NCBI RefSeq assembly: GCF_002909235.1 | Contig: NZ_PHQQ01000010.1 | Span: forward strand, 1 to 64,000 | DNA from: Arenibacter catalasegens | GTDB taxonomy: Bacteria; Bacteroidota; Bacteroidia; Flavobacteriales; Flavobacteriaceae | Length of the DNA: 64,000 nt | Reading direction: 5' to 3' | Shown here: positions 45,801 to 64,000 of the stretch, piece after piece | How positions within the stretch are numbered: position 1 is the first letter of the stretch | How the letters are laid out: each line of letters starts with the position of its first letter | The notes under the pieces: model-generated | What the model saw: only the letters and a program-made list of their open reading frames with translations | What the model was told of the DNA's origin: nothing | Databases searched by the model: none | Made by a program: the position numbers and the translations under genes

Positions 45801-46045
45801 TTTTTCAAATTAAATTTGGAAAGGTGAAATGCCGATTACTTGGTGACTTTGCATCCAAATCTATGGATGTGAGCACATATGGATTAACATAAACCAAATA
45901 GTATGTTTTTATATACTTTTTGGTTTATTTTTTTGAAAGAATATTTTTCACTGGGAGAGTTTCTCATTTTATAATTTCCGTTGTTCAATAAAGGTAATGA
46001 ACATCACTTGCGAACATACATTTCAACATTTTGTGTTAAAAACTT
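45801..46045. other. Intergenic stretch upstream of nrdB
   Basis: About 250 bases between the small hydrophobic frame and the nrd regulatory region. The 230 bases before it (45477-45707) are equally empty. No terminator hairpin for the hybrid regulator was found. Confidence 0.4.
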
Positions 46046-46054
46046 TGTGGGTAA
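46046..46054 (-). promoter_or_regulatory. DnaA-box-like site upstream of nrdB
   Basis: TGTGGGTAA on the plus strand is TTACCCACA on the minus strand, one mismatch from the DnaA box TTATCCACA. It lies 110 bp before the nrdB start, in a T/A-rich run (TGTTAAAAACTTTGTGGG). DnaA control of ribonucleotide reductase is known in E. coli; here it is only suggested. A single nonamer can occur by chance. Confidence 0.3.
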
Positions 46055-46163
46055 TAATGCTTATTTAGCTTTAGTTATTGGGTGTATTTTGCAATCTTTG
46101 TTATCTCCGACCGAGGGCAAATATTCGCCTTAGTTTAAGAAACCCTTAAAATCTAAATAAGAT

Positions 46164-47153: not shown

Positions 47154-47171
47154 TAGGTAACGGTATAAAGG

Positions 47172-47203
47172 AAATCCCCTTTGGGTTATAAGGGGATTTT
47201 TAT
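47172..47203 (+). terminator. Terminator between nrdB and nrdA
   Basis: AAATCCCCTT (47172-47181) pairs perfectly with AAGGGGATTT (47190-47199), with an 8-nt loop and a TTTTTAT tail. Read-through or a separate nrdA promoter within the next 80 bp must supply nrdA mRNA. Confidence 0.85.
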
Positions 47204-47286
47204 GCGATGAATTTGATATGTTAATGTTTTTAACATATGCCCCATGGCCCAAACGTATGTATCATTAAAAAAAAAATTGTAGCAAC

Positions 47287-49761: not shown

Positions 49762-49789
49762 AGGGCTCACATCCTCGGAATTAATCAAT

Positions 49790-49823
49790 AAAAAATCCCC
49801 AAAGATTACTTTGGGGATTTTTT
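49790..49823 (+). terminator. Rho-independent terminator of nrdA
   Basis: AAAAAATCCCCAAAG (49790-49804) pairs with CTTTGGGGATTTTTT (49809-49823) around an ATTA loop. It ends in a run of T. Confidence 0.93.
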
Positions 49824-50147
49824 ATTATAATAGCTAAAGTGCCTTAGCTCATATAATTGTAATCAATTATTCTTGTAAGCTGTTTATCTATTGGATATAT
49901 AAGGTTTTAGTACAAACGCACAAAGGAACGCTATACAATATATTATTAGAATTGTGATGTGCTTATCCATTTTGCCCCGTATTAGATAGTTTATACATTT
50001 ATATACGTGAGAAATAGGAAATTGGATTATAATTATCTTATATACAATAATTTATCATAACATATCCTTGTCATTTTTTAAAATGATGGTGATATATTAT
50101 TCTTCCTAATGCGAAGAATATAAGGTAGACTGCTAAGGTGTAAATGT
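49824..50147. other. Intergenic stretch between nrdA and the TIM-barrel gene
   Basis: About 320 very A/T-rich bases between two convergent units. No open frame or repeat was supported. Confidence 0.4.
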
Positions 50148-50194
50148 AAAGTTCCATCTTACCCTTCTGACGAAGAAGCAAGATGGAAACTTTC
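50148..50194 (-). terminator. Terminator-like hairpin downstream of the Tat TIM-barrel gene
   Basis: TTCCATCTT (50152-50160) pairs with AAGATGGAA (50180-50188), with outer AAAG/CTTT and an inner TTCT/AGAA pairing. Relative to the leftward gene it lies 25 bp after the stop. The T tract is weak. Confidence 0.55.
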
Positions 50195-50218
50195 TAAAAG
50201 CAACGTTAAATTTGTGGA

Positions 50219-51133
50219 CTACAAGAAGTTATCCTCGGACTTATAGGCATTTATAACGGCCGTCTCACCCTCCTTGTCCGGTCTGGAATTGCCGTGTTCC
50301 ATGCCCAAGACTCCTTTAAATCCTTTGCTGTGAATATATTTGAAGACATTTTTGTAATTAATTTCCCCAGTAGTAGGTTCCTTTCTACCAGGATTGTCCC
50401 CTATTTGGATATAGTCTATTTCATCCCATGTAAGTTCCATATTGTGGATTAAATGTCCTTCAGTTTTTTGCATGTGGTAGATGTCAAACAATATTTTACA
50501 GGAGGGGCTATTCACGCCTTTACATATCATATAGGTTTGATCTGAATTTTGTAGGTATAGATCTGGAGAATCAGATAAAGGTTCTAATACCATTACCAAG
50601 CCATGAGGTTCTAAAATCTCCGCTCCTCGTTTTAATGCCTCAATAACATTGCCGTCCTGAATACCAATTGGCAGTTTTCTTTCGAATCCACCCGGCACAA
50701 CGGTCATCCATTTGGCATTGACACGTTTGGCAACATCTACGGCTCTTCTGCAGCCGTCCAAAAAGATATCAATATATTCCTGTTTACCTGCAGCGAGGGT
50801 ATTTGCCATATTACCTCCTTTGTCAACTACAAATACACCCATGGTCATATTCCGTTTGGCTAAGGTTTCGCCTATTTTGGTTTGCATTGCAACGTCCCTA
50901 CCCATCATGCCGTTGTCTTCAAAAGCAGTAAACCCTTGGTCGGCCATAAAGTTTATTTGGTCAATAAGGTCATCACCGGCAAGGTTTTTAAACATCCCAA
51001 AATGGGGGGCATATTTTAAATTGAACGTATGCTTCGCTTCTAAATTAGGTTTGGCTCCATAAGCCAAAGAACCTCCAATTGTAATGGCACTACTTGTAAG
51101 TGCTGTTTTTTGTATAAAATCTCTTCTTTTCAT
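50219..51133 (-). CDS. Tat-exported sugar isomerase-like TIM barrel (hydroxypyruvate isomerase family)
   Basis: A 304-residue AP-endonuclease-2-like TIM barrel with a Tat-type signal (MKRRDFIQKTALTSSAITIGG), so a periplasmic location is predicted. Probable metal ligands are the Glu in MVLEPLSDS, the Asp in KILFDIYHMQ and the last Glu in VLGMEHGNS, as in Hyi and xylose-isomerase-like epimerases. It is encoded downstream of the GMC/small-subunit pair in the same direction but separated by a strong hairpin (51168-51214). The reaction is probably isomerisation, epimerisation or elimination on an oxidised sugar. Confidence 0.88.
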   Translation of the reverse strand: MKRRDFIQKTALTSSAITIGGSLAYGAKPNLEAKHTFNLKYAPHFGMFKNLAGDDLIDQINFMADQGFTAFEDNGMMGRDVAMQTKIGETLAKRNMTMGVFVVDKGGNMANTLAAGKQEYIDIFLDGCRRAVDVAKRVNAKWMTVVPGGFERKLPIGIQDGNVIEALKRGAEILEPHGLVMVLEPLSDSPDLYLQNSDQTYMICKGVNSPSCKILFDIYHMQKTEGHLIHNMELTWDEIDYIQIGDNPGRKEPTTGEINYKNVFKYIHSKGFKGVLGMEHGNSRPDKEGETAVINAYKSEDNFL

Positions 51134-51167
51134 TTTTTGGATATGGTTGAATTTATTTATAAAAGAA

Positions 51168-51214
51168 TGCTAATGGAACTAAGTGGCCTTTTGGCCTTCC
51201 TAGTTCCGTTAGCA
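51168..51214 (-). terminator. Long imperfect hairpin between the GMC pair and the TIM-barrel gene
   Basis: TGCTAATGGAACTA (51168-51181) pairs with TAGTTCCGTTAGCA (51201-51214) with one G-T-type mismatch, and an inner GGCC-TTTT-GGCC closes the loop. Nearly all 47 nt are paired. Read leftward it is followed by TTCTTTTAT. It may terminate, attenuate or protect the mRNA of the GMC operon. Confidence 0.75.
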
Positions 51215-51232
51215 TAATAATTTTGGTATAAT

Positions 51233-51880
51233 TTAAAGTGACCAGGCCTTTCCCCCGGTTAGTTCCTGAAGATCTCCGCAACCAATGTATTCCCCAGGTA
51301 CCGGTAAATATGATAATACATTCTCGCCGACCAATTCGGATGACTTATAGCCCCAGATAGTTAGATCTCTTAAATTATTTGCGAATGCAAATCTGGATAT
51401 ATCATCGTTCAAGTTGTCCGTTTTGCCAGCTTTTACGGCTTCTGTGTAAGTCTTTATTGCCTTGAAATGGTTTACCTGATCTTCTTTTGAAATCTTCAGG
51501 GCATTGGCCAAGACCGGTTCCAGTTCTTTTGGAGTTAAGTCCGCAATCTCTGTCTTGCCCGAATCCTTTAAGACCTTATCCAAGAATTTCCCCATGGTCA
51601 TCTTTAACATGTCCTGCTGTTCTTTTTCCATTACCTGATCTGCCAAACGGTCTATAAAGATATGGACCTGTACCTCAGAGGCAGAAGGGGTATCGGTTTT
51701 AGGAAGTATTATGTCGACCAGATGGGTTAGAACGGAGCCCTCTGCAGAGGATAGAAAATCTGGTGTCCATAAAATTGCAGCGTCTTTTTTACAACTTTGA
51801 ACAATGCTTAACAAGGTTGGGGTGGCTACGGTGTATCCCAACGCCAGTCCCATATTTCTAATTGCTTTTCTTCTATCCAT
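51233..51880 (-). CDS. Gluconate 2-dehydrogenase subunit 3-like small subunit
   Basis: A 215-residue protein of the gluconate 2-dehydrogenase subunit 3 family. The N-terminus (MDRRKAIRNMGLALGYTVAT) is a Tat-like signal, and the Cys in SIVQSCKK may instead be a lipobox. The core (LTHLVDIILPKTDTPSASEV) and the C-terminal SYLPVPGEYIGCGDL are the family pattern. It should carry the adjacent GMC subunit (overlap by 1 bp), which has no signal of its own, across the inner membrane. No cytochrome subunit is encoded in the window. Confidence 0.88.
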   Translation of the reverse strand: MDRRKAIRNMGLALGYTVATPTLLSIVQSCKKDAAILWTPDFLSSAEGSVLTHLVDIILPKTDTPSASEVQVHIFIDRLADQVMEKEQQDMLKMTMGKFLDKVLKDSGKTEIADLTPKELEPVLANALKISKEDQVNHFKAIKTYTEAVKAGKTDNLNDDISRFAFANNLRDLTIWGYKSSELVGENVLSYLPVPGEYIGCGDLQELTGGKAWSL

Positions 51881-53592
51881 TATATATTTCCTTTTTTAAG
51901 TTCTTTTACCGCATGGTCAGCGGCTCTAGCAGTGAACGCCATATAAGTTAATGATGGGTTAACGCAACTGGCCGAAGTCATAAATGACCCATCAGTTACA
52001 TAAACATTAGGTACGTCATGCAATTGATTGTTCCCATTGAGCACAGAGGTTTTTCTGTTGCGTCCCATCCTTGCAGTACCCATTTCGTGAATTCCCAAAC
52101 CTAAGCCGGTTGGGCCATCATGTCCTTCTACATCACGTAAACCAGCTTTTTCCAACATTTCTACAGCTGATTGCTGCATGTCTTTACGCATGTTAAATTC
52201 GTTTTCCTGTAAGTCGGCATCAAAGGTTACTGTGGGAAGCCCCCAGCCATCTAGTTTATCGTAATCCAAGGTCATTCTGTTGTCTTGATAAGGGAGCACT
52301 TCGCCAAAACCACCGATGCCCATTCTCCAACCTCCTGGTTGAAGTATATTTTCCTTAAGGTCTTTTCCGTAAGAGAGTTCGGCAACCGTTTCTTCCCAAT
52401 TACCCCTGCTGGCTCCCCCTTGATAACCGAAGCCACGTTTGTAATCTTTTCTATTGGAATCTCCCCCTAAATTTCTAAATCTTGGAATATATATACCATT
52501 AGGTCTTCTACCTTTGTAGTACCTATCTTCGAAGCCGTCGAATTTACCGGAAGCACCAACCCCTAAATGATGGTCCATAATATTGCGGCCCAATTGGTCA
52601 GAATCATTCCCCATACCATTCGGGAATCGATCGGATTTGGATTGCATTAATATCGAAGTGGAAGCTATAGAGGAGGCACATAAGAAAATTACCTTTGCCT
52701 TAAATTCAAATGTTTCCTTTGTTAACCGGTCTATAACTTTTACCCCTGTAGCTTTTTTGGTGTTAGGGTCATAAATTACCTCATGTACAATGGAATCTGT
52801 ACGTAATGTCATGTTTCCTGTTGCTTCTGCCGCAGGTAGGGTAGAAGACAAACTACTGAAGTAAGCTCCAAAAGGACACCCTCTAATACAACGGTTTCTA
52901 TATTGACACTTGGTACGTCCGTCAAAATTTTTGGTTCCGGTTATGTGTGCAACCCGACCTATGGTAACGGCACGGTCGTCAAAACCTTCCGTAACTTTAT
53001 TTTTAAAATGTTCTTCAACACAATTCATTTCCATGGGGGGCAAAAAATCACTATCCGGTAACTGAGGAAGATTAAGTGCCTCCCCACTAACACCAATATA
53101 GTTTTCCACTAAAGAGTACCATGGGGCAATATCCTTATAACGCACGGGCCAATCAACTGCAATGCCATCTTTTAGGTTGGCTGTAAAATCGATGTCGCTC
53201 CAACGGTAACTTTGACGTCCCCATTGTAATGAACGTCCACCTAGGTGGTAACCTCTCATCCAATCAAATCGCCTTATTTCGTTATATGGGTGTTCCAGAT
53301 CATTTACAAACCACATTTTACTTGCAGCATTTGTGGTATATCCAGTTCTGTTCTGTTTAGGTTGTTTTTCAACATCTGCCTTGGTCGGTTCTCCGGCATT
53401 CGGAAAGTCCCAAGGATCCATATTGGCAGTCTCGTAGTCTTCGATATGTTTTATCATCCTTCCACGTTCCAAAACCAGGGTTTTAAGTCCTTTTTCACAT
53501 AATTCCTTTGCGGCCCACCCTCCGCTAATTCCCGTACCTACGACAATTGCATCATAAGAATCCTGCACCTCATTGTTAAAAATCTTGCTCAT
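51880..53592 (-). CDS. GMC-family FAD-dependent oxidoreductase (large subunit)
   Basis: A 570-residue GMC enzyme. The FAD-binding motif is AIVVGTGISGGWAAKEL (G-x-G-x-x-G, residues about 15-31), followed by VLERG. A Cys-rich block (CQYRNRCIRGCPFGAYFSS) is typical of gluconate/sorbitol-type dehydrogenases. The C-terminal catalytic elements are IHEMGTARMG (His) and CVNPSLTYMAF (Asn). Substrates in this group are sugars or sugar acids oxidised at a secondary hydroxyl. There is no signal peptide; export probably depends on the small subunit gene that overlaps it. Its 5' region is divergent from the lipoprotein TIM-barrel gene. Confidence 0.93.
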   Translation of the reverse strand: MSKIFNNEVQDSYDAIVVGTGISGGWAAKELCEKGLKTLVLERGRMIKHIEDYETANMDPWDFPNAGEPTKADVEKQPKQNRTGYTTNAASKMWFVNDLEHPYNEIRRFDWMRGYHLGGRSLQWGRQSYRWSDIDFTANLKDGIAVDWPVRYKDIAPWYSLVENYIGVSGEALNLPQLPDSDFLPPMEMNCVEEHFKNKVTEGFDDRAVTIGRVAHITGTKNFDGRTKCQYRNRCIRGCPFGAYFSSLSSTLPAAEATGNMTLRTDSIVHEVIYDPNTKKATGVKVIDRLTKETFEFKAKVIFLCASSIASTSILMQSKSDRFPNGMGNDSDQLGRNIMDHHLGVGASGKFDGFEDRYYKGRRPNGIYIPRFRNLGGDSNRKDYKRGFGYQGGASRGNWEETVAELSYGKDLKENILQPGGWRMGIGGFGEVLPYQDNRMTLDYDKLDGWGLPTVTFDADLQENEFNMRKDMQQSAVEMLEKAGLRDVEGHDGPTGLGLGIHEMGTARMGRNRKTSVLNGNNQLHDVPNVYVTDGSFMTSASCVNPSLTYMAFTARAADHAVKELKKGNI

Positions 53593-53675
53593 TTATGAAA
53601 TTGTTTATTTAATAAATTTATTAAATATAAAATTAATTTTCTACATTTAAACCCTATATTTATTAATACTATAGC

Positions 53676-53691
53676 ACTATAACGTTATAGT
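53676..53691. promoter_or_regulatory. 16-bp perfect palindrome in a divergent promoter region
   Basis: ACTATAACGTTATAGT is its own reverse complement and lies between the divergent GMC (start 53592) and TIM-barrel lipoprotein (start 53727) genes. Its half-site GTTATAGT recurs twice upstream of the Tat Gfo/Idh/MocA gene at 5317-5351. It is a good candidate for a repressor or activator operator. Confidence 0.5.
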
Positions 53692-53726
53692 TATTGTTAA
53701 TCCTTGGATTTAATCTCAAACCTGAT

Positions 53727-54716
53727 ATGAAGTGTAAAAATTTAAAAATCAATGGAATTAAGGTAGTTTTATTTGCCTTATTAATAGGTGTTTTTTCTTG
53801 TAAGGAAGCTCCTAAGGAGCAGCCAAAGGATGTGGAGGCCTCTGAGTTATCCATGAAGGTTGCAGATCCATTTTTTAAATTGTCATTGGCCCAATGGTCC
53901 ATTCATAAAATGATACGTAATGATAACGTTGATCCTTATACATTTGCGGAGAAGGCAAAAAAATGGGGCTTTACCGGGCTCGAGTACGTAAGTCAATTAT
54001 ATAACCCTGAGTTGGAAAAAGCTAATTATTCCAAGGAGGCCATGGCTGCATTTGTCGAGAAATCTAATGCAGAGGCAAAAAAGTACGGTTTGCAAAATGT
54101 ATTGATTATGATCGATGGCCAAGGGAATTTGGCCGTAAGCGATGAGAAAGAAAGAAATGAAACCGTTGAAAAACACAAGATATGGGTGGATGCCGCTGCC
54201 GCAATGGGATGCCATGCAATTCGGGTAAACCTTAACGGAAGCAGCGTTCCGGAAGAGTGGAAAGCGAATGCCGTTGACGGACTTACCAAGTTGGCAACTT
54301 ATGCTAAAGGCAAGAATATTAATGTTTTGGTCGAAAATCACGGGGGCTTGTCTTCCAATGGCGCATTACATGCCGAAGTGATGGCAACTGTAAATATGGA
54401 TAATTGTGGAAGCCTTCCTGATTTTGGCAATTTCTGTATTGAGCGATCAAAGGATGGATGTGCCGAGGAATATGACAATTATAAAGGTATCAGTGAATTA
54501 ATGCCGTATGCCAAGGCGGTAAGTGCCAAATCCCACGATTTTGATGCGGATGGCAATGAAACTAAATTGGATTACCCTAGAATTCTTAAAATCGTTAAGG
54601 ATGCGGGTTATACTGGATATATAGGTGTGGAGTACGAAGGTAGTATTTTAGGCGAGGAGGACGGAATTCTTGCTACTAGGGATTTATTGATAAAGGCGGG
54701 TAAGGAACTTAATTAG
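53727..54716 (+). CDS. Lipoprotein sugar isomerase/epimerase-like TIM barrel
   Basis: About 329 residues starting MKCKNLKINGIKVVLFALLI at 53727, with a lipobox Cys in IGVFSCKEAP. An in-frame TTG at 53694 is less likely. The xylose-isomerase-like barrel shows FTGLEYVSQLYN, NVLVENHGGLSSNG (Glu), CGSLPDFGNFC (Asp) and YIGVEYEGS (Glu). It probably works in the periplasm on a sugar or keto-sugar. It is the first gene of an operon with the DinB-like, permease and Gfo/Idh/MocA genes (gaps 11-17 bp). Confidence 0.9.
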   Translation: MKCKNLKINGIKVVLFALLIGVFSCKEAPKEQPKDVEASELSMKVADPFFKLSLAQWSIHKMIRNDNVDPYTFAEKAKKWGFTGLEYVSQLYNPELEKANYSKEAMAAFVEKSNAEAKKYGLQNVLIMIDGQGNLAVSDEKERNETVEKHKIWVDAAAAMGCHAIRVNLNGSSVPEEWKANAVDGLTKLATYAKGKNINVLVENHGGLSSNGALHAEVMATVNMDNCGSLPDFGNFCIERSKDGCAEEYDNYKGISELMPYAKAVSAKSHDFDADGNETKLDYPRILKIVKDAGYTGYIGVEYEGSILGEEDGILATRDLLIKAGKELN

Positions 54717-54727
54717 TAGTGGATCCT

Positions 54728-55171
54728 ATGAAGGCCTTTTTTAATCAGCTGTTCGATTATAACTTTTATTGCAATAAGAAATTGATTGAAGAGTGCCAAA
54801 AGCTGGAAAATGTTCCAGATAGAACAATGGAGCTCTTCAGTCATATTTTAAATGCCCATCATATTTGGAATGCTAGAATTCTTGGAAAAAAGATTGAGTA
54901 TGATGTTTTTCAGTTACAATCTCCAAAGGATTGGGGAGACATACATTACGAAAATCAAAGAAGCTCTTTTGAGATAATAACCAATGTGGATGATCTTGAA
55001 AAGCGATTGGATTATGAGAATACCGAAGGAAGGTTGTTTACTAATACCATTCAAGATATGTTGTTTCACATTATAAACCATTCGACCCATCATAGGGCGC
55101 AAATTTCCATTGATTTTAGAAATAACGCCATTGAGCCTTTGGTCATGGATTATGCTTTTTATAAGCGATAA
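54728..55171 (+). CDS. DinB-family protein
   Basis: About 147 residues starting MKAFFNQLFDYNFYCNKKLI at 54728; a GTG at 54719 is possible but less likely. It is a four-helix DinB-like bundle with the three metal-binding His motif: HILNAHHIWNARIL and MLFHIINHSTHHRAQI. DinB-fold enzymes include thiol-dependent transferases and hydrolases of small molecules. Its place inside a sugar operon suggests a metabolic role, but none is known. Confidence 0.85.
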   Translation: MKAFFNQLFDYNFYCNKKLIEECQKLENVPDRTMELFSHILNAHHIWNARILGKKIEYDVFQLQSPKDWGDIHYENQRSSFEIITNVDDLEKRLDYENTEGRLFTNTIQDMLFHIINHSTHHRAQISIDFRNNAIEPLVMDYAFYKR

Positions 55172-55187
55172 ATATACCCTCTAAACC

Positions 55188-56417
55188 GTGAATGTAAAAA
55201 CCAAAGTGCAATTGTCCTTTATGATGTTTCTCGAATTCTTTATTTGGGGCGGTTGGTACGTAACACTTGGTACCTTTTTGGGGGAGAACCTTCAGGCCAC
55301 TGGAGCAGAAGCGGCAATGGCGTATTCAACGCAATCCTGGGGGGCAATTATTGCTCCTTTTATAGTTGGATTGATTGCCGATAGATATTTTAATGCGGAG
55401 CGAATTTTAGGTGTGTTACATCTTTTGGGAGCGGTGATGATGTGTCAAATGTATACCGCCGTGGACTTTGTCGGTTTTTACCCCTATGTACTTGGATATA
55501 TGATACTCTATATGCCTACTCTGGCCCTAGTGAATTCAATTTCCTTTAGTCAGATGAAAAATCCGGCCAAAGAATTTTCTTTTGTCAGGGTTTTTGGAAC
55601 CATAGGATGGATAGTGGCCGGATTAGTAATTAGCTATGCGTTTTTATGGGACTCCGAAACCTCCAGGGGAGAAGGCTTATTAAAAAACACCTTTTTAATG
55701 GTGGCTATCGCTTCGGCTGTTTTGGGACTTTTTAGTTTTACGTTGCCCAAAACACCTCCAAAAGTCAAAACTGATGAAAAGATATCGATTTCGAGTATTT
55801 TGGGACTGGATGCCCTGAAACTTTTGAAAGATAGAAATTTTTTGATATTTTTTGTTTCATCAATACTAATATGCATTCCCTTGGCCTTTTATTATCAAAA
55901 TGCCAATCCGTTTTTGTCGGAGGTTGGAATGGAAAACCCAACAGGTAAAATGACCATTGGGCAAGTTTCGGAAGTTTTATTTATGTTGCTGTTGCCATAT
56001 TTCTTTAAGAAATTCGGATTTAAAAACACCATGATTGCCGGAATGCTCGCCTGGACAATTAGATATCTCCTTTTTGCCTATGGAAATAACGGGGATTTGA
56101 CTTTTATGTTAATTTTGGGTATTGCCCTGCACGGTATTTGCTATGATTTCTTCTTTGTTTCCGGACAGATTTATACGGATTCAAAGGCGGGTGATAAATT
56201 TAAAAGTGCGGCACAAGGATTAATTACCTTGGCTACCTATGGTGTTGGGATGTTGATAGGTTTTTGGGTTGCAGGTAAAATAACAGATAGTTATTTACTG
56301 AGTGAAGGGTTGCACAGCTGGACGGATATCTGGACATTTCCTGCTATTTTTGCACTAGCGGCTATGGCGCTGTTCGCTATATTTTTTAAAAACGAAGAAG
56401 TAGAATATAAAGAGTAA
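55188..56417 (+). CDS. Nucleoside-permease-like MFS transporter (NupG/NHS family)
   Basis: A 409-residue, 12-helix transporter. The family opening is FMMFLEFFIWGGWYVTLGTF, followed by IVGLIADRYFNAER, and FVRVFGTIGWIVAGLVIS in the middle. NHS members carry nucleosides with protons, but related Bacteroidota proteins beside sugar genes may carry other polar compounds. It starts at GTG (55188), 16 bp after the DinB-like gene. It would bring the product of the periplasmic steps into the cell for the next gene's oxidoreductase. Confidence 0.88.
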   Translation: MNVKTKVQLSFMMFLEFFIWGGWYVTLGTFLGENLQATGAEAAMAYSTQSWGAIIAPFIVGLIADRYFNAERILGVLHLLGAVMMCQMYTAVDFVGFYPYVLGYMILYMPTLALVNSISFSQMKNPAKEFSFVRVFGTIGWIVAGLVISYAFLWDSETSRGEGLLKNTFLMVAIASAVLGLFSFTLPKTPPKVKTDEKISISSILGLDALKLLKDRNFLIFFVSSILICIPLAFYYQNANPFLSEVGMENPTGKMTIGQVSEVLFMLLLPYFFKKFGFKNTMIAGMLAWTIRYLLFAYGNNGDLTFMLILGIALHGICYDFFFVSGQIYTDSKAGDKFKSAAQGLITLATYGVGMLIGFWVAGKITDSYLLSEGLHSWTDIWTFPAIFALAAMALFAIFFKNEEVEYKE

Positions 56418-56434
56418 TTAGGAATAAATAGATT

Positions 56435-57571
56435 ATGGGTAAAAAAATTAGATTAGGAATTCTAGGGGGTGGAGGAGACTCTCTAATTGGGGTGTTACAC
56501 CGAGTGGCATCACAGATTAATGATAATTACGAAATTGTTGGTGCTGTTTTTAACCCGGATTTTGAAGCGAATGTTGCTTTTGCCGAGGAGATAGATGTGC
56601 CTACCAATAGGATTTATAAGGATTTTGATACCTTGGTGGAAGAGGAATTAAAACTCCCTAAGGAAGAACGTATTCAGGTATGTTCAATACTTACCCCTAA
56701 CTTTTTGCATTTTCCAATGGCTAAAAAGTTGTTGGAAAACGGGTTTCATGTAATTTGTGAAAAGCCCATGACCACTACCTACGAGGAGGCTAAAATATTA
56801 CAGGCCACCTTGGAAAAAGCCAAAACTGTTTTTGCGGTTACCCATACCTATACCGGGTATCCTATGGTTAGACAAATGCGGGAGATGATAAAGGACGGTG
56901 CTATTGGGAAAGTACACAAGGTAGATGCACAATATTATCAGGGATGGATCAACTCCATCATACATGATAAGGCTAAACGGTCTACGGTTTGGAGATTGGA
57001 CCCTAAAAAGGCAGGGATTAGTTCGTGTATGGGAGATATTGGGGTACACGCCTTTAATATGATCGAATATACAACCGGCATGGCCATAAAGTCTATTTTG
57101 GCAGATTTCAATTATTTATATGAAGATAACCAGATGGATGTAGACGGTACAGTTCTGATCCGTATGGGAAATCATGTGAAAGGGGTTATTCGATCTAGTC
57201 AGGTGGCTACAGGGGAAGAAAACAGACTTTCCATTGCTGTTTACGGAGAAAAGGGTGGCCTTAGATGGGAGCAAGAAAATCCCAATTATCTTTATGTCTT
57301 AAGTGATGATAAACCCCTTCAGGTATATAAGCCTGGTCATGCATATAATTCCAAATTATCCTTGAATGGAACTAAATTGCCTCCTGGACATCCTGAAGGT
57401 ATTTTTGATTCTATGGCCAATATCTATTTAGGTGTTGCAAGGGCAGTTAGAGGTGAAAAATATAACGATGGAGAATTTCCTACAATGATGGATGGTGTAC
57501 GTGGTCTGGATTTTATTGAGAGCACGGTAGAGTCCAACAAAAATGGGAATGTTTGGGTCGATTTGAAATAA
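56435..57571 (+). CDS. Cytosolic Gfo/Idh/MocA-family oxidoreductase
   Basis: A 378-residue NAD(P)-dependent enzyme without signal peptide. The Rossmann glycine motif is LGILGGGGDSLIG and the classical EKP motif is CEKPMTTTYEEAKILQ (Lys about 108). The substrate-domain signature with the catalytic Asp-x-x-x-His appears in MGDIGVHAFNMIEY. It oxidises or reduces a sugar-like substrate, and could reduce a 3-keto sugar back or oxidise at another carbon. It is the last gene of the operon, closed by a perfect palindromic terminator. Confidence 0.93.
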   Translation: MGKKIRLGILGGGGDSLIGVLHRVASQINDNYEIVGAVFNPDFEANVAFAEEIDVPTNRIYKDFDTLVEEELKLPKEERIQVCSILTPNFLHFPMAKKLLENGFHVICEKPMTTTYEEAKILQATLEKAKTVFAVTHTYTGYPMVRQMREMIKDGAIGKVHKVDAQYYQGWINSIIHDKAKRSTVWRLDPKKAGISSCMGDIGVHAFNMIEYTTGMAIKSILADFNYLYEDNQMDVDGTVLIRMGNHVKGVIRSSQVATGEENRLSIAVYGEKGGLRWEQENPNYLYVLSDDKPLQVYKPGHAYNSKLSLNGTKLPPGHPEGIFDSMANIYLGVARAVRGEKYNDGEFPTMMDGVRGLDFIESTVESNKNGNVWVDLK

Positions 57572-57590
57572 TTAATATTTGATTGATATA

Positions 57591-57617
57591 AAAATGGCCG
57601 CAATTGCGGCCATTTTT
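57591..57617. terminator. Bidirectional terminator, perfect palindrome
   Basis: AAAATGGCCGCAATTGCGGCCATTTT is fully self-complementary, with T runs on both sides. It can end both the rightward operon and the convergent ASCH gene. Confidence 0.92.
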
Positions 57618-57643
57618 TATGAAAATATTTTAAGTTAAAGAGA

Positions 57644-58105
57644 TTATCCGTACACCTTTTCAAATTCCACGCAAACTACGATGGTACTATCTCTGGGAAC
57701 ACGGTCGTAAGGTGCCAGTTCACGGGTAAAATAATCCCAATGGTATTTTTTCCAGTACTCAAGACTTTTGTCGCCCATGCCTTCCAATTGTACATAATCT
57801 TTGGTAATGCTGAAAAATGGTTTCAGCTTTACAGCGGTAGTCCTTATAATGCACTTGGCTTTGCCGTTCCAATCTGTAATTATCATAAAAGCACCTATTT
57901 TGGGTAGTGGCTCCTTTCGGTTTTGAAGACCCAATAAGGAAAAAGAGGTCGCTTTTTTAATATCCTTTATAATTAAACCCACAAAGTGGTCTGCGTCTTG
58001 TTCATTGTCGCTAAAGTGAAGCACTTTGGGTGCTTCTACAAAAGCAAATTCTAGGTGGGCATCCAAAAAATCCCCCCACATATTTCTAGCCGAAGCATTG
58101 TCCAT
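57644..58105 (-). CDS. ASCH-domain protein
   Basis: A 153-residue protein of the ASCH (PUA-like) superfamily. The ASCH ligand-binding region shows LPKIGAFMIITDWNGKAKCI and IRTTAVKLKPFFSI, and the C-terminal strand is VVCVEFEKVY. ASCH domains bind RNA or small nucleic-acid-like ligands, and some are nucleases or amidohydrolases on modified cytidine. The function in this sugar locus is unclear; it may simply be a neighbour. It is convergent with the Gfo/Idh/MocA operon. Confidence 0.8.
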   Translation of the reverse strand: MDNASARNMWGDFLDAHLEFAFVEAPKVLHFSDNEQDADHFVGLIIKDIKKATSFSLLGLQNRKEPLPKIGAFMIITDWNGKAKCIIRTTAVKLKPFFSITKDYVQLEGMGDKSLEYWKKYHWDYFTRELAPYDRVPRDSTIVVCVEFEKVYG

Positions 58106-58166
58106 TCTAATTAGGTCTAAGTTTTAACAGTAACGGTAAAATACATTAATTATTTCTCGAAGGATG

Positions 58167-59870
58167 TTATGAAAATTTGCCCTCTTTCAATTGTTTGGCT
58201 GCATGATTTGCCGCCCTGGCTGTAAATGCCATATAAGTCAATGACGGATTTACACAATTGGAGGAGGTCATAAAAGCACCATCGGTGACATAAACATTGG
58301 GAACTAGATGCACTTGATTATTTTTATTCAAGATGGAAGTTTTGGGATCATGCCCCATTCTGGCGCCACCCATTTCATGTATGCCCAATCCCGGCCAGGA
58401 AGATTCCTCATAGGACTGTACATCCTTAAATCCAGCCGCTTCAAACATTTCTACGATAACTTTTTTGATATCCTTGCGCATATTCAACTCGTTTTCCTTG
58501 AATTCAACATCAAACGCCAATTGTGGAAGTCCCCATTTATCTTTTTCAGTAGGGCTTAAGGTGACCCTGTTGTCGTCATATGGCAGGAATTCTCCAAATC
58601 CGGTAACACCGATTGTCCAATGACCGGGCTTTAGAATACTTTCTTTGAGTTCTTTTCCATATCCCAATTCCCCAATGGCTTCCGACCAATCGCCTCTACT
58701 GGCCGTACCTTGATATCCGAATCCACGAATATACCCATCACGCTTGGTCTTTTTGTCCATATTTACGAATCGGGGAATATAAAAACCATTGGCACGGCGA
58801 CCTTTATAATATTTGTCCAAATAACCATCTACTTTAGCGGTTGCCCCTAATTTATAATGATGGTCCATAATCCCTCTACCTAAGGCATCCGAGTCATTTC
58901 CAAGACCGTTAGGGAAGCGTTCACTTTTTGATTGCAATAAAATACCGACAGAAGCCATGGCTGAAGCACAAAGAAAGATAATACGGGCTTTGAACTCCAC
59001 TTTTTCGTTGGTCTCCGTATCTATGACTTTTACTCCGGTCGCTCTTTTTGTTTTATCATCATAGACGACCTCGTACACAATGGAATTGGGTCTGAGCGTC
59101 ATATTACCAGTTCTTTCTGCGGCTGGCAAAGTGGATGAATTACTGCTAAAATAGCCTCCGAAAGGGCAGCCACGCCAGCACCTATCTCGATTTTGACACA
59201 CTCCACGACCTTCGAAATCTGCATTTGGATTTGTAATGTGTGCCGTACGACCAATGGTCACCAAACGACCATCGTCAAATTTTTCTTCGATAGATTTTTG
59301 AAAGTCTTCTTCTACACAATTCAATTTCATGGGGGGTTGAAATTTGCCATCCGGCAATTGTTTTAGCCCGAGGGCTTGACCACTGACCCCTATATATTCT
59401 TCAACTTTGTCATACCATGGCGAAATGTCCCTATATCTAACAGGCCAATCAACACTGATGCCCTCTTTTTTATTGGCTTCAAAATCAATGTCACTCCAAC
59501 GGTAACTCTGTCTGCCCCATGTTAAGGAACGCCCACCGACCTGATATCCTCTTATCCAATCGAATCGTTTGGTTTGAACATAAGGATGCTCCAAATCGTT
59601 CACAAAGAAATGCTTATTGCTCTGATCTGGTGCCCAATTCAACCTACTTTGTATGTGATATTTCTCCTTATCCGATTTAGATAATTTGCCTTTTAATGGG
59701 TAATCCCAGGGGTCATCGTTCATGGTGGGGTAATCCTCGATATGCTTAACCATTCGTCCTCTTTCCAGCACCAAAGTCTTTAACCCATTCTCACAAAGTT
59801 CTTTAGCTGCCCAACCTCCACTAATTCCGGTACCTACAACAATGGCATCAAATATTTCACTTTGATTCAT
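58167..59870 (-). CDS. GMC-family FAD-dependent oxidoreductase, second paralogue
   Basis: A 567-residue close relative of the GMC protein encoded at 51880-53592 and of the same layout: AIVVGTGISGGWAAKELCEN, VLERGRMVKHIEDYP, the Cys block CQNRDRCWRGCPFGGYFSS, and C-terminal IHEMGGARMG (His) and CVNPSLTYMAF (Asn). It has no signal peptide and no small-subunit gene beside it. It may share the one at 51233-51880, or remain in the cytosol. Its 5' region is divergent from the TIM-barrel/DUF1080 operon, mirroring the first GMC locus. Confidence 0.93.
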   Translation of the reverse strand: MNQSEIFDAIVVGTGISGGWAAKELCENGLKTLVLERGRMVKHIEDYPTMNDDPWDYPLKGKLSKSDKEKYHIQSRLNWAPDQSNKHFFVNDLEHPYVQTKRFDWIRGYQVGGRSLTWGRQSYRWSDIDFEANKKEGISVDWPVRYRDISPWYDKVEEYIGVSGQALGLKQLPDGKFQPPMKLNCVEEDFQKSIEEKFDDGRLVTIGRTAHITNPNADFEGRGVCQNRDRCWRGCPFGGYFSSNSSTLPAAERTGNMTLRPNSIVYEVVYDDKTKRATGVKVIDTETNEKVEFKARIIFLCASAMASVGILLQSKSERFPNGLGNDSDALGRGIMDHHYKLGATAKVDGYLDKYYKGRRANGFYIPRFVNMDKKTKRDGYIRGFGYQGTASRGDWSEAIGELGYGKELKESILKPGHWTIGVTGFGEFLPYDDNRVTLSPTEKDKWGLPQLAFDVEFKENELNMRKDIKKVIVEMFEAAGFKDVQSYEESSWPGLGIHEMGGARMGHDPKTSILNKNNQVHLVPNVYVTDGAFMTSSNCVNPSLTYMAFTARAANHAAKQLKEGKFS

Positions 59871-59922
59871 TCTATATTTCTTGTATTAATTCTGATGCTT
59901 TTCCTATATTTATGACTTCGCA

Positions 59923-59943
59923 TTTGTAGGCATAGGCTACAAA
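59923..59943. promoter_or_regulatory. Inverted repeat in divergent GMC/TIM-barrel region
   Basis: TTTGTAG (59923-59929) and CTACAAA (59937-59943) are separated by 7 bp between divergent genes starting at 59870 and 60014. The size fits a dimeric regulator operator. Confidence 0.45.
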
Positions 59944-59952
59944 CATTAAATA

Positions 59953-59968
59953 TAGGATTTTTATCCTA
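59953..59968. promoter_or_regulatory. Second inverted repeat in the same divergent region
   Basis: TAGGAT-TTTT-ATCCTA (59953-59968) lies 9 bp right of the previous inverted repeat, 45 bp before the TIM-barrel start codon. It could be a second operator or a start-site-proximal hairpin. Confidence 0.4.
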
Positions 59969-60013
59969 AATGTTAACAATGGTTATTTTCAATTACACTT
60001 AATAAAATTTAAA

Positions 60014-61066
60014 ATGAAGACAATTAAAGGGCCGGCAGTATTTTTAGCACAATTTGTAGATGAAAAAGCACCATTCAATTCATTGGATGGCATGTGTAAA
60101 TGGGCATCCGATTTGGGATATAAGGGAATTCAAATACCTACTTGGGTCGATTTTCTTATCGATTTGGATAAAGCTGCCGAGAGTCAGACCTACTGTGATG
60201 AATTAAAGGGAAAGATAAATTCCTACGGACTTGAGATTACGGAGTTGTCTACGCATTTGCAAGGACAATTAGTGGCAGTGAATCCTGCTTACGATTTGAT
60301 GTTTGATAATTTTGCGCCCGATAAAGTAAAAAATAATCCCAAGGCCCGTACCGAGTGGGCAGTAGATACTGTTAAAAAAGGAGCTACAGCAAGTAGAAGA
60401 CTTGGTCTTAATTCGCATGCCACCTTTTCTGGTTCTTTATTATGGCATACGGCCCATCCATGGCCACAGAGACCAGCGGGATTGGTAGAAATGGGCTTTG
60501 AAGAACTGGCCAAAAGATGGTTGCCTATCCTAAATCATTTTGACAAGGAAGGTGTGGACGTATGCTACGAAATTCATCCTGGTGAAGATCTACATGATGG
60601 GGATACTTTTGAACGCTTTTTAGCTGCTACCGGAAATCACAAAAGGGTCAATATTCTTTACGACCCAAGCCATTTTGTACTTCAACAATTGGACTACATT
60701 GCTTATATAGACCATTACCATGAGTTCATAAAATCATTTCACGTTAAGGATTCTGAATTTAACCCAACTGGTAAGAAGGGTGCTTTTGGTGGATTTAACG
60801 ATTGGGGAGACAGGGCTGGAAGATATCGCTCTCTAGGCGACGGACAGATAGATTTTAAAACCATTTTCTCTAAATTAACACAGTATGGCTGTGATGTTTG
60901 GGCAGTAATGGAATGGGAATGCTGCATAAAAAGTCCAGAACAAGGGGCACGGGAAGGAGCCAAGTTTATCCAAGACCATATCATAGAGGCTACAGAAAAG
61001 ACCTTTGATGATTTTGCCGGCGCTGCAATAGATAAAACAGTACTGAAGAAGATATTAGGAATATAA
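60014..61066 (+). CDS. Sugar phosphate isomerase/epimerase-like TIM barrel, cytosolic
   Basis: A 350-residue barrel without signal peptide. Likely metal ligands are the Glu in DVCYEIHPGEDL, the Asp-x-x-His in ILYDPSHFVL, His in IKSFHVKDSEF, and the last Glu in AVMEWECC. This set matches the AP-endonuclease-2-like isomerases and epimerases (IolE/Hyi group), several of which act on keto-sugars. The following two genes (DUF1080 lipoproteins) are 17 and 19 bp apart, so the three form one operon. Confidence 0.9.
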   Translation: MKTIKGPAVFLAQFVDEKAPFNSLDGMCKWASDLGYKGIQIPTWVDFLIDLDKAAESQTYCDELKGKINSYGLEITELSTHLQGQLVAVNPAYDLMFDNFAPDKVKNNPKARTEWAVDTVKKGATASRRLGLNSHATFSGSLLWHTAHPWPQRPAGLVEMGFEELAKRWLPILNHFDKEGVDVCYEIHPGEDLHDGDTFERFLAATGNHKRVNILYDPSHFVLQQLDYIAYIDHYHEFIKSFHVKDSEFNPTGKKGAFGGFNDWGDRAGRYRSLGDGQIDFKTIFSKLTQYGCDVWAVMEWECCIKSPEQGAREGAKFIQDHIIEATEKTFDDFAGAAIDKTVLKKILGI

Positions 61067-61083
61067 AATTAATATAGAAGAAA

Positions 61084-61860
61084 ATGAAAAAATTAATTTT
61101 CAGTGCCTTGATAGCTGTTATGGTTGTTGGCTGTAAGGATAAAACGGATAAAAAGAACATGGACTTAGACTCAGATCCCATGACTAATTCTGAGCAAGGA
61201 ACTCCACCTCCACAAGCTCCTATTGAAGGGGAATGGCAGGTACTTTTTGACGGGACCAATTTTGATGCATGGAAACGGTATTTGGAAGATGGTGTTGGGG
61301 ATGCATGGAAGATTGAGGACGGTGCCATGGTGTACTATCCACCCAAGGACCGCAAAAAGGGAGAGAAATACAATTTAGTAACCAAGGAAGACTTTACCAA
61401 CTTTGTACTATCCGTAGACTGGAAAATTTCAGAGGGTGGGAACAGTGGTATTTTTTGGGGAGTTAAGGAAGTTCAAAGCCTGCCGGAAGCCTACCACTCT
61501 GGGCCAGAAATTCAGGTATTGGACAATGAAAAACACCCTGACGCCAAAAATGGAACTACCCATCAGGCCGGTGCTTTATATGACATGATAGCCCCGAGTA
61601 TAGATGCCACAAAACCGGTTGGGGAATGGAATACCTGTGTAATTACCATAAACCATAAAACCAATAAAGGTAATGTAGTTTTGAATGGTACAGAGGTAGC
61701 TTCTTTCCCTGTTCATGGTGAGGAATGGGAGGCCATGATTGCCAAATCCAAATTTAAAGGATCAGAGCATTTTGGTAAATATATGACCGGACGAATTGGA
61801 TTGCAAGATCATGGGGACAAGGTGTACTTTAAAGGCATCAAAATAAAAACATTGGACTGA
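61084..61860 (+). CDS. DUF1080 (3-keto-disaccharide hydrolase) lipoprotein
   Basis: A 258-residue lipoprotein (lipobox Cys in MVVGCKDK). The single DUF1080 jelly roll begins WQVLFDGTNFDAWKRY and has the conserved core GGNSGIFWGVKEV, HSGPEIQVLDNEKH, QAGALYDM and the last strand IGLQDHGDKVYFKGIKIK. The family (PF06439) contains enzymes that split 3-keto-glycosides by elimination or hydrolysis, probably with a metal held by the conserved Glu, Asp and His. Its periplasmic face and operon partner TIM barrel fit such a role. Confidence 0.92.
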   Translation: MKKLIFSALIAVMVVGCKDKTDKKNMDLDSDPMTNSEQGTPPPQAPIEGEWQVLFDGTNFDAWKRYLEDGVGDAWKIEDGAMVYYPPKDRKKGEKYNLVTKEDFTNFVLSVDWKISEGGNSGIFWGVKEVQSLPEAYHSGPEIQVLDNEKHPDAKNGTTHQAGALYDMIAPSIDATKPVGEWNTCVITINHKTNKGNVVLNGTEVASFPVHGEEWEAMIAKSKFKGSEHFGKYMTGRIGLQDHGDKVYFKGIKIKTLD

Positions 61861-61879
61861 TCCAATATTAATTAAGTAT

Positions 61880-62710
61880 ATGAAATTGAGACTTGTTTAT
61901 ACCTTCTTTCTATTGATTTTGGTTTTTGCCTGTAAAGAAAAAGTTGCGGAGGATACATTGGAGCTAAAAGATTCAAAGGAAATTGAGGAAGGAATTGTAG
62001 TACATGGGGAATACTCAGGTGCAGAACCAACAACTCCGGAGGGGACCGAATTTTATAAACCGGTTCCTCCTGTGGTAAATCCTTTTGATCCCATTAAGAG
62101 AGCTCCCAGTGATGCTATTATTCTCTTTAGTGGAGGAAATTTGGACAATTGGATTACTACTAAAGACAGTACAGCAGCCAAGTGGATTGTTAACAAGGAC
62201 GGTAGTATGACGGTCAACAACAAGACAGGGGATATACAGACAGTACAAAACTTTGGGAGTATGCAATTGCATCTTGAATGGAAATCTCCTGCAGAAATTC
62301 AGGGAAAACAACAAAGTAGGGGTAATAGTGGTGTTTTTCTTCAGGGCTTGTACGAGGTACAGGTCTTGGACAACAATGATAACGATACCTATGTAAACGG
62401 GCAAGTGGGGTCTGTATACAAGCAACATACCCCCCTTGCCATGGCATCTGTGCCCACTGGGGAATGGAATACCTATGATATTATTTATCATGCACCGGAA
62501 TTCAATAAAGACGGGAAAAAGATTAAATCGGGAACTGTAACTGTAATACACAATGGTGTCCTTGTGCAGGACAATGTTGAAATTAAGGGAACCACTCCTT
62601 ATATTGGCTGGCCCAAAAATCCAGCCCATGGAAAAGGTCCTTTAAAACTGCAGGATCATGGGGACAATAGTAGGGTAAGTTATAGGAATATCTGGGTAAG
62701 GGAACTTTAG
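61880..62710 (+). CDS. Second DUF1080 lipoprotein
   Basis: A 276-residue lipoprotein (lipobox Cys in VFACKEK). After a linker of about 60 residues the DUF1080 domain starts DAIILFSGGNLDNW, with RGNSGVFLQGLYEVQVLDN, GSVYKQHTPLAM and LKLQDHGDNSRVSYRNIWVR. It differs from the first in lacking the extra loop before the QVLDN strand, so substrate range may differ. It is the last clear gene of the TIM barrel-DUF1080-DUF1080 operon, although a small frame starts directly after its stop. Confidence 0.92.
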   Translation: MKLRLVYTFFLLILVFACKEKVAEDTLELKDSKEIEEGIVVHGEYSGAEPTTPEGTEFYKPVPPVVNPFDPIKRAPSDAIILFSGGNLDNWITTKDSTAAKWIVNKDGSMTVNNKTGDIQTVQNFGSMQLHLEWKSPAEIQGKQQSRGNSGVFLQGLYEVQVLDNNDNDTYVNGQVGSVYKQHTPLAMASVPTGEWNTYDIIYHAPEFNKDGKKIKSGTVTVIHNGVLVQDNVEIKGTTPYIGWPKNPAHGKGPLKLQDHGDNSRVSYRNIWVREL

Positions 62711-62857
62711 ATGGAATGGGTGTTTATCATTGGAAACAAGGCACCCAGTTTGCTGTTTTTACTTTTTGCCTGGTTCGTTGTACATGCCCTCCTACATACA
62801 TATTCACATTTATGGCTATCGCAGCAGAAAAGGCATGAAGAATCGGGAAGCGATTAA
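62711..62857 (+). CDS. Possible 48-residue membrane peptide at the end of the DUF1080 operon
   Basis: ATG at 62711 follows the DUF1080 stop with no gap. The 48-codon frame (MEWVFIIGNKAPSLLFLLFA, then WFVVHALLHTYSH, ending QKRHEESGSD) has one likely transmembrane segment and a charged tail. Direct abutment could allow translational coupling. No family is known and chance remains possible. Confidence 0.4.
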   Translation: MEWVFIIGNKAPSLLFLLFAWFVVHALLHTYSHLWLSQQKRHEESGSD

Positions 62858-62993
62858 AGAGTGAGCACCAATCCAGAATGGAAGAGTTCAAATTAGCATT
62901 AAAGGCCTTAATGATTGACTTTGCACTGTACTTGTCCATCGAAGAATACAAATCCCAATTTTATTTACCTTTATCAAAATTTAAAAACAATTT

Positions 62994-63851
62994 ATGATCC
63001 AATCTATGACAGGGTTTGGGAAGCACGTTATACAACTTCCTTCGAAAAAAATTACCATTGAAATCAAATCTCTAAATAGTAAAAGTCTTGATTTAAATGC
63101 CAGGATACCCTCTACGTACCGGGAAAAGGAATTGGAATTGCGAAGGACGATTGCCGGTTCCTTGGTCAGAGGTAAAATAGATTTTAGTCTATATATTGAA
63201 AATACGGGTGCTGAGACCACTTCGGAGGTTAACGAAGTAGTGGTTAGACAATATATGAAACAGTTGGGTCATATTGTTTCCGGTAATGAAATGAGCCTAT
63301 TGGAAATCGCTATGCGCATGCCCGATACTATGAAAACGGAACGGGAGGATATAGATGAGGACGAATATAAGATTATAAAAGAGTCGCTTGAAGAGGCACT
63401 AAAGGAAATAAATATTTTTAGAACAGAGGAAGGAAAGGTCTTGGAGGTTGATTTTGAAGCAAGAATAAGCACTCTCAAAGGTTTATTGGACAAGGTTGCA
63501 CAAATGGACCCAGACAGACTTTTAACGATAAGAGAACGGCTGGAAAAGGCTGTAGCAGACCTAAAGGCCGACTTGGATGCGAATCGTTTTGAACAAGAGC
63601 TTATTTACTATCTTGAGAAATATGATATTACAGAAGAAAAGGTTCGTTTGCTTAATCACTTGGATTATTTTGCCAGTACGTTGAAATCTGATGATTCCAA
63701 CGGTAAGAAACTGGGTTTCATTAGTCAGGAAATCGGAAGGGAAATAAATACTATTGGTTCCAAGGCTAATTTTGCCCCCATGCAACAGTTGGTGGTGCAG
63801 ATGAAGGATGAATTGGAAAAGATCAAAGAACAAATGCTTAATGTTTTGTAA
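62994..63851 (+). CDS. yicC: YicC-family protein (YicC/YloC endoribonuclease)
   Basis: A 285-residue protein with the family opening [10 protein letters not shown] and the C-terminal DUF1732 block (about 200-285), [20 protein letters not shown] and [18 protein letters not shown]. Recent work on YicC homologues shows endoribonuclease activity, and long-standing linkage to gmk is conserved here: the next gene overlaps its stop by one base. Confidence 0.95.
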
Positions 63852-64000
63852 TGAAAGGAGGAAAATTAATTATTTTTTCTGCCCCTTCTGGTAGTGGAAA
63901 AACAACCATAGTGAAACATCTTTTAAATCAGCCAGAACTTAATCTGGCATTTTCAATTTCGGCCACTTCCAGACCTAGACGTGGAAAGGAAAAAAATGGT
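63851..64000 (+). CDS. gmk: Guanylate kinase (N-terminal part, cut by window edge)
   Basis: ATG at 63851 overlaps the yicC stop (TAATG). Fifty codons are visible: [19 protein letters not shown] with the P-loop (residues 11-19), then [17 protein letters not shown], the GMP-binding start TSRPRRGE-like. The enzyme makes GDP from GMP and ATP. The rest lies beyond the window. Confidence 0.95.

Follow-up and report, generated by a model that had tools for sequence, protein, structure and literature searches.

We describe a cluster of 12 genes in the flavobacterium Arenibacter catalasegens (NCBI RefSeq assembly GCF_002909235.1). The cluster quite probably encodes a non-hydrolytic route of glycoside breakdown, split across the cell envelope and running through oxidation, elimination, hydration, and reduction. 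It lies between positions 50219 and 62857 of the window, by which we mean the whole stretch of DNA analysed, 64,000 nucleotides at positions 1 to 64,000 of contig NZ_PHQQ01000010.1. The host genome comprises 5.45 Mb in 82 contigs.

Genes of the locus

The 12 genes form 4 runs of alternating strand: TIM1, a LacC-like small subunit, and GMC1 on the minus strand; TIM2, a DinB-family gene, a NupG-like permease of the major facilitator superfamily (MFS), and a Gfo/Idh/MocA enzyme on the plus strand; an ASCH-domain gene and GMC2 on the minus strand; and TIM3 with two DUF1080 proteins, DUFa and DUFb, on the plus strand. TIM1, TIM2, and TIM3 are TIM barrels of the AP_endonuc_2 family, and GMC1 and GMC2 both carry the N- and C-terminal GMC_oxred domains (PF00732/PF05199). 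All open reading frames (ORFs) of the locus are intact. It is flanked by a ribonucleotide reductase gene (46164-49761) and a YicC gene (62994-63851), both recognised by eye; export signals, namely twin-arginine (RR) motifs, lipoboxes, or the absence of a signal, were also judged by eye.

An initial annotation of this DNA had grouped two GMC oxidases, three isomerase-type TIM barrels, two DUF1080 lipoproteins, a permease, and a Gfo/Idh/MocA enzyme, and had noted that no glycoside hydrolase was present. The permease and the Gfo/Idh/MocA enzyme are in place, and a family profile search gave zero matches to glycoside hydrolase families among the 12 proteins; no SusCD-type transporter was seen among the 12 genes. 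Three genes had been overlooked: the Gluconate_2-dh3 small subunit (LacC; 51233-51880), the DinB-family gene (54719-55171; PF05163, 1.5e-12), and the ASCH-domain gene (57644-58105; PF04266, 1.5e-17).

Candidate genes for hydration and reduction

TIM3 (60014-61066), which carries no export signal, matches PDB entry 8ro4, a deposited 2-hydroxy-3-keto-glucal hydratase (HYD), over its full length (residues 1-350; E-value 1.2e-161). The match scores 541 bits, against 45 bits for the solved IolE 3cny. Residues E186-x-H188, D217, H243, E300, and E302 are present in 81/81 rows kept; here and for GMC1, GMC2, DUFa, and DUFb, rows were kept at a coverage of at least 85%, an identity of at least 70% (GMC) or at least 45% (others), and no inner stop, with the window's own row counted. 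The nearest named loci are four Arenibacter records (98-99% identity). Homologues in other Bacteroidota genomes at E<=1e-100 are 62-93% identical, and those in four proteobacterial plasmid loci 65-69%. TIM3 thus matches a 2-hydroxy-3-keto-glucal hydratase and, by the absence of a signal, would be cytosolic; assignments as an isomerase or as IolE were rejected on the full-length 8ro4 match and the weak iolE score. Because TIM3 matches a hydratase and has no export signal, the order oxidation, elimination, import, hydration, and reduction becomes the likelier one. The initial annotation had a TIM barrel rearrange the keto sugar; that step should read as elimination outside and hydration inside.

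The Gfo/Idh/MocA enzyme (56435-57571; PF01408/PF22725/PF02894) has no signal and matches the uncharacterised PDB entry 3v5n (1.3e-88). We propose that it is a 3-keto-glucose reductase. The permease upstream (Nuc_H_symport; 55188-56417; PF03825, 3.7e-117) is proposed as an importer of the enone or of a keto sugar. A further Gfo/Idh/MocA oxidoreductase, RR-bearing and with a GFO_IDH_MocA_C2 domain, is encoded about 44 kb upstream (5418-6884).

Conservation and linkage

Gene neighbourhoods were compared in 100 loci. Eighty named loci are the best 80 of the 584 that a TIM3 search confirmed, and hence close kin; the other 20 are distant bacteroidotal loci, 16 picked for a listed GMC gene no farther than 15 kb from the hydratase and 4 for having none. 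A survey of 296 Bacteroidota genomes complements them.

Gene order is largely kept across the close kin. Among these 80 loci, Gfo and DUFa were each seen in 76, ASCH in 73, TIM2 in 71 by coverage filter (73 by a looser rule), MFS in 68, DinB in 65, GMC1 and DUFb each in 63, LacC in 59, GMC2 in 54, and TIM1 in 41, with short contigs and the 10 kb flank cutting genes off, TIM1 most. DinB and ASCH recur inside these loci, with no role evident. The 20 distant loci contain Gfo in 20, MFS in 18, GMC in 16, LacC in 16, and DUF1080 in 14; the way these loci were picked partly sets the GMC and LacC counts, a bias from which the scoring of Gfo is free. Gfo is the neighbour of HYD among scored genes in 20/20 distant loci and stands beside HYD in 4/4 proteobacterial loci. 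The initial annotation had looked to relatives for a check on the neighbourhood, and it is conserved in both the close-kin and the distant loci.

At E<=1e-60, GMC1 is matched in 108/199 genomes of Flavobacteriaceae. In the survey, TIM3 occurs in 57 genomes, GMC in 84, and both in 56, so that GMC is found in 56/57 hydratase genomes vs 28/239 others (Fisher 6e-38, a value that ignores kinship, as Fisher values do). TIM2 occurs in 66/296 genomes, 56 of them also with GMC and 32 also with TIM3; among the matches listed, a GMC lies no more than 15 kb away at 24/73 TIM2 places, and 9 of the 24 belong to genomes that have no TIM3 match. TIM1 occurs in 47/296 genomes, 44 of them with GMC, and 11/50 of its places, among the matches listed, are near GMC. 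These comparisons drew on 130 listed GMC places for the hydratase and 150 for TIM2 and TIM1. The grouping of the locus genes exceeds chance.

Similar sets occur on proteobacterial plasmids. A Pseudoalteromonas plasmid carries Gfo, HYD, MFS, DUF1080, GMC, Gluconate_2-dh3, and a TIM barrel in a single run; its GMC shares only 31% identity with GMC1 but 48% with a GMC elsewhere in the host genome, on contig C12. A Croceicoccus plasmid has Gfo, HYD, Gluconate_2-dh3, and a GMC that is 47-48% identical to GMC1 and GMC2; its stretch also holds TIM barrels beside DUF6379 genes and a GH3 gene, with no DUF1080 feature. On Phyllobacterium and Azospirillum plasmids, HYD and Gfo lie beside genes of an ATP-binding cassette (ABC) transporter, with no GMC match.

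Candidate genes for oxidation

GMC1 (51880-53592) and GMC2 (58167-59870) are paralogues, 66% identical. The nearest PDB relatives of GMC1 are fructose dehydrogenase (2.2e-38) and glucose dehydrogenase (4.3e-35), with 7qf8 at only 2.1e-10. The two GMC genes of the initial annotation are real, but since their nearest solved relatives are dehydrogenases the label of oxidase was rejected. Three Cys of GMC1 align with those of fructose dehydrogenase, and we take them to be the ligands of a 3Fe-4S cluster. In GMC1, Cys229/235/239 and His502 are present in 61/61 rows kept and Asn545 in 60/61, with one gap; in GMC2, Cys225/231/235 are present in 53/53 and His498 in 52/53. We propose GMC1 as a LacA-like glycoside 3-dehydrogenase dependent on flavin adenine dinucleotide (FAD).

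The small subunit LacC (PF13618, 9e-28; zero PDB matches) bears an RR motif and a lipobox Cys, with R3, R4, and C30 in 53/53 rows, and the first base of its gene overlaps the last base of GMC1. Because neither GMC protein has an export signal by eye and LacC has both motifs throughout, LacC likely carries GMC out of the cytoplasm as a passenger. LacA and LacC presumably belong to the GMC and Gluconate_2-dh3 families, and we take the arrangement here to be that of LacA and LacC.

Candidate genes for cleavage and isomerisation

Two kinds of exported protein are candidates for the splitting step. DUFa (61084-61860) and DUFb (61880-62710; of the 4QHZ kind) score 159 and 130 bits with PF06439 (cut-off 26.8), and both have a lipobox, as the initial annotation had it. 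DUFb matches PDB 4qhz at 7.3e-77. A QDH motif is invariant (DUFa 69/69, DUFb 49/49 rows kept) and may or may not hold the counterpart of the catalytic His275 in the lyase described next. DUFa is proposed as a 3-keto-glycoside hydrolase/lyase. For a 3-keto-O-glycoside lyase of B. thetaiotaomicron, the H275N form is described as hydration-deficient (PMC13273386), which implies that one lyase can perform both elimination and hydration; judging from deposit names, this lyase would be a DUF1080 protein and PDB 8rr2. The host genome has 27 DUF1080 and 21 AP_endonuc_2 matches, and 3-keto sugar chemistry may be broad in it.

The lipobox-bearing barrel TIM2 (53727-54716, taking the ATG at 53727 as likelier than the TTG at 53694 in the ORF list) matches PDB 4ovx at 1.2e-77. 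Its profile aligns with C-glycoside eliminases, which occupy ranks 2-10 of its fold matches. Residues C25, E203, H205, D232, K268, and E302 are present in 70/70 rows, and comparison with printed eliminase alignments indicates that TIM2 keeps the Glu-x-His, Asp, Lys, and Glu of the eliminase active site. Moreover, for a C-glycoside eliminase, 4OVX is reported as one of the nearest matches by structure (PMC8563793). On these grounds, TIM2 is a probable exported 3-keto-glycoside eliminase.

The main competitor holds that the DUF1080 lipoproteins do all the cleavage and that TIM2 epimerises or isomerises the 3-keto intermediate, a credible reading to which we give less than even weight. In its favor, Ser266, found in 70/70 rows, aligns with the His of the eliminases' H-x-K. 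In the eliminase AgCGD2 the metal-binding His is given as His269, two residues before Lys271 (PMC8563793), a numbering that we carried over to TIM2 by the H-x-K spacing. Epimerases are mixed in from fold rank 11, with E-values close to those of the eliminases. The beta subunit of C-glycoside eliminases, which we take to be DUF6379, had no match to a single DUF6379 query in the 100 loci. With metal His and beta subunit both missing, TIM2 was rejected as a true C-glycoside eliminase. Against an epimerase speak the invariant catalytic residues, the place of 4OVX beside an eliminase, and the distribution of TIM2 relative to another barrel, OGE.

OGE and HYD are the two TIM barrels encoded in Agrobacterium/Rhizobium with a flavoenzyme GlycDH, a Tat-signal protein, and a Gfo enzyme (Bitter 2023, PMC10628242). 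We call a barrel OGE-like by its His-x-His motif and by ligands spaced 30/26/49, vs 31/26/44 for the AtOGE residues named in that paper, a label distinct from comparison with the AtOGE sequence. TIM2 and an OGE-like barrel occur together in 0/100 loci at the thresholds used, as expected of stand-ins. An OGE-like barrel was found in 0/80 close-kin loci with two OGE-like queries, neither of them AtOGE, and TIM2 and DUF1080 are there instead. Both queries are about 30% identical to many homologues, so that absences are not firm. The 20 distant loci have an OGE-like barrel in 12, a TIM1-like barrel in 11, and TIM2 in 2; among the 16 with GMC, 12 have an OGE-like barrel, 2 have TIM2, and 2 have neither. 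The last TIM barrel of the Pseudoalteromonas run is OGE-like. The host genome itself holds both kinds, TIM2 here and an OGE-like barrel with GMC and LacC on contig C12, where a His-x-His TIM barrel with OGE-like ligand spacing, a Gluconate_2-dh3 subunit, and a GMC lie at about 92.3-95.6 kb.

More tentatively still, TIM2 and the 4OVX group might constitute a class of their own among 3-keto-glycoside beta-eliminases, one that is exported, whose metal site lacks the usual His, and that replaces OGE in part of the Bacteroidota; cleavage would then occur outside the cytoplasm, and the reactive enone 2-hydroxy-3-keto-glucal would itself be the nutrient that the NupG-like permease imports, to be hydrated inside. 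A division of labor in which TIM2 serves one anomer and DUF1080 the other is a guess.

TIM1 (50219-51133) has an RR motif and matches PF01261 at 2.7e-28. It scores 108 bits with TIGR03234, against an equivalog cut-off of 353; being below this NCBIfam cut-off, it was rejected as a hydroxypyruvate isomerase proper. PDB matches are 3ngf (3.1e-17) and, weakly, YcjR 6wn6 (3.6e-4); by fold it is nearest 3ngf and 1k77, followed by 3-epimerases. The RR motif, E184-P-L, D217, H220, and E279 are present in 40/40 rows. TIM1 would fall in the branch of hydroxypyruvate isomerases and ketose 3-epimerases and is a possible 3-keto-sugar epimerase or isomerase. The initial annotation's RR-bearing, lipobox-bearing, and signal-less barrels are thus all present, but they are of three different kinds and only TIM1 looks like an isomerase or epimerase.

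Proposed pathway and alternatives

From the observed families, hydratase kinship, conserved residues, export motifs, and linkage, we infer the activities, the order of steps, the transported compound, and the substrate. Lipid-anchored GMC1, and perhaps GMC2, would be exported with the subunit LacC through the twin-arginine translocation (Tat) route, oxidise the glycoside at C3, and pass electrons via the iron-sulfur cluster to an acceptor encoded elsewhere. Outside the cytoplasm, the DUF1080 lipoproteins, probably also TIM2, would then split the 3-keto-glycoside in a beta-elimination that yields the aglycone and 2-hydroxy-3-keto-glucal. This enone, or a keto sugar derived from it, would enter through the permease; TIM3 would hydrate 2-hydroxy-3-keto-glucal to 3-keto-glucose in the cytosol, and the Gfo/Idh/MocA enzyme would reduce 3-keto-glucose to glucose. 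Exported TIM1 would probably epimerise or isomerise a 3-keto intermediate. Should the DUF1080 proteins catalyse hydration too, the cytosol would receive keto sugar as well as enone. The general idea of the initial annotation, that an exported GMC flavoenzyme, DUF1080, a permease, and a Gfo reductase act jointly on 3-keto-glycosides, is supported by the family and linkage evidence.

Besides the serine of TIM2 and the beta subunit, several findings count against this pathway. GMC2 has no small subunit gene beside it. The survey includes 28 GMC genomes without the hydratase, and 27/59 hydratase places, among the matches listed, have no GMC within 15 kb. TIM2 and the cytosolic hydratase would be partly redundant beside a DUF1080 lyase capable of hydration as well. 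Last, no CxxCH motif of a cytochrome c occurs in the 12 locus proteins or in other ORFs of 49700-63100, and LacABC needs all three parts, cytochrome included. By a stricter pattern, a cytochrome was found in 0/80 close kin, a bare CxxCH in some stop-to-stop ORF of 31/80 being probably mostly chance; the same stricter pattern picked out a small cytochrome-like ORF in 10/20 distant loci, near mid-stretch where the hydratase lies. The host genome has 25 cytochrome c matches elsewhere, which could serve.

The scheme of the initial annotation has oxidation by GMC, hydrolysis by DUF1080, and isomerisation of the keto sugar by a TIM barrel, followed by import and reduction, with no free elimination intermediate. 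The naming of DUF1080 proteins as 3-keto-disaccharide hydrolases, the isomerase branch of TIM1, and the hydrating B. thetaiotaomicron lyase (PMC13273386) agree with it, but under it the cytosolic relative of the hydratase, whose linkage to Gfo, MFS, and GMC extends through the phylum, would lack a substrate, and we consider it improbable. Inositol or cyclitol degradation, in which TIM3 would act as an IolE-like dehydratase and Gfo would be the inositol dehydrogenase, draws on NCBIfam scores (iolE 59 bits vs a cut-off of 290, iolG 59.5 vs 355) that lie far below cut-off, was rejected on these and on the far closer kinship of TIM3 to 8ro4, and is very improbable; we know of no place for DUF1080 and LacA/LacC-like genes in inositol catabolism.

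Other features of the window

An Rfam search of 45000-64000 gave zero matches. Promoter-like sites numbered 50 vs 39.7 (standard deviation 5.3) in shuffles and terminator-like sites 11 vs 13.5, counts that tell little; inverted repeats are present in both divergent gaps of the locus. Farther upstream, at 9909-12972, a gene whose product carries GxDLY and GDSL domains runs into the start of a gene for an alpha-galactosidase (Melibiase_2). A histidine kinase-like ORF (55-1626), whose N-terminal part consists of near-repeats of the KAKRAAELVxANKELVFQNEE type, and an IS200/IS605-type transposase-like ORF (3737-4201) with a long ORF on the opposite strand were recognised by eye.

Relation to known systems

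LacABC oxidises lactose in the Caulobacter periplasm, with a DUF1080 protein proposed as 3'-ketolactose hydrolase; LacA and DUF1080 genes are reported together in Halomonas, Algoriphagus, and Indibacter, and in Pedobacter a lactose dehydrogenase had phenotypes, while ten DUF1080 genes had none on lactose (Price 2022, PMC9007349). As described there, that system resembles ours in placing periplasmic dehydrogenase genes beside DUF1080, also in Bacteroidota, and in needing no glycoside hydrolase; the present locus differs in having no cytochrome c gene and in adding a hydratase, extra TIM barrels, a reductase, and a permease. The Agrobacterium tumefaciens GlycDH-OGE-HYD-Gfo operon shares a flavoenzyme with a Tat-signal partner, a TIM-barrel hydratase, a Gfo reductase, and the sequence of oxidation, elimination, hydration, and reduction, whereas here there are two GMC paralogues, exported TIM2 replacing OGE, two DUF1080 lipoproteins, RR-bearing TIM1, and a NupG-like permease (PMC10628242).

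Three further groups of enzymes offer partial parallels. The C-glycoside eliminases DgpBC, DfgAB, and CarBC (PMC8563793; PDB 7exz, 7bvr, 7dnm) share with TIM2 the fold and the Glu-x-His, Asp, Lys, and Glu; TIM2 differs in its lipoprotein export, in the Ser that stands two residues before the Lys where they have His, and in the absence of a beta subunit match. In the levoglucosan route, two proteins annotated as sugar phosphate isomerases are reported to eliminate and hydrate, and a Gfo enzyme reduces 3-keto-glucose, as would be the case in LgdA-B1-B2-C and here alike; the first oxidation there depends on nicotinamide adenine dinucleotide (NAD), in contrast to the GMC flavoenzyme and envelope-split route proposed here (PMC7676230). 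Glycoside 3-oxidases and C-glycoside oxidases also perform C3 oxidation of glycosides within the GMC superfamily, but they are described as oxygen-dependent (PMC10646112), and the GMC proteins of the window are nearer fructose and glucose dehydrogenases.

The initial annotation saw a distinct variant in first oxidation by GMC. This does not hold: C3 oxidation by such a dehydrogenase, the DUF1080 pairing in Bacteroidota, and the four-step chemistry are already in print, as is a flavoenzyme route (PMC9007349, PMC10628242). Kastner 2024 (Angew. Chem.) and Nasseri 2024 (Nature) may cover part of the locus chemistry as well, and we hold the claim of novelty low. Among the open-licence PMC titles and abstracts listed, none was found that describes how these parts combine in a single conserved flavobacterial locus, the replacement of OGE by exported TIM2, or the missing cytochrome. 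Any novelty may lie in the lipoprotein barrel TIM2 as an unusual exported splitting enzyme.

Significance

The surprise is limited by the prior publication of the pathway idea. The locus nonetheless provides likely functions for genes annotated merely as "sugar phosphate isomerase" and "DUF1080", and 4OVX, a solved and unassigned structure, is now a candidate eliminase. Glycoside use by marine Bacteroidota is mostly deduced from glycoside hydrolases and loci of the Sus type; a conserved, hydrolase-free locus working by oxidation and elimination would escape such surveys.

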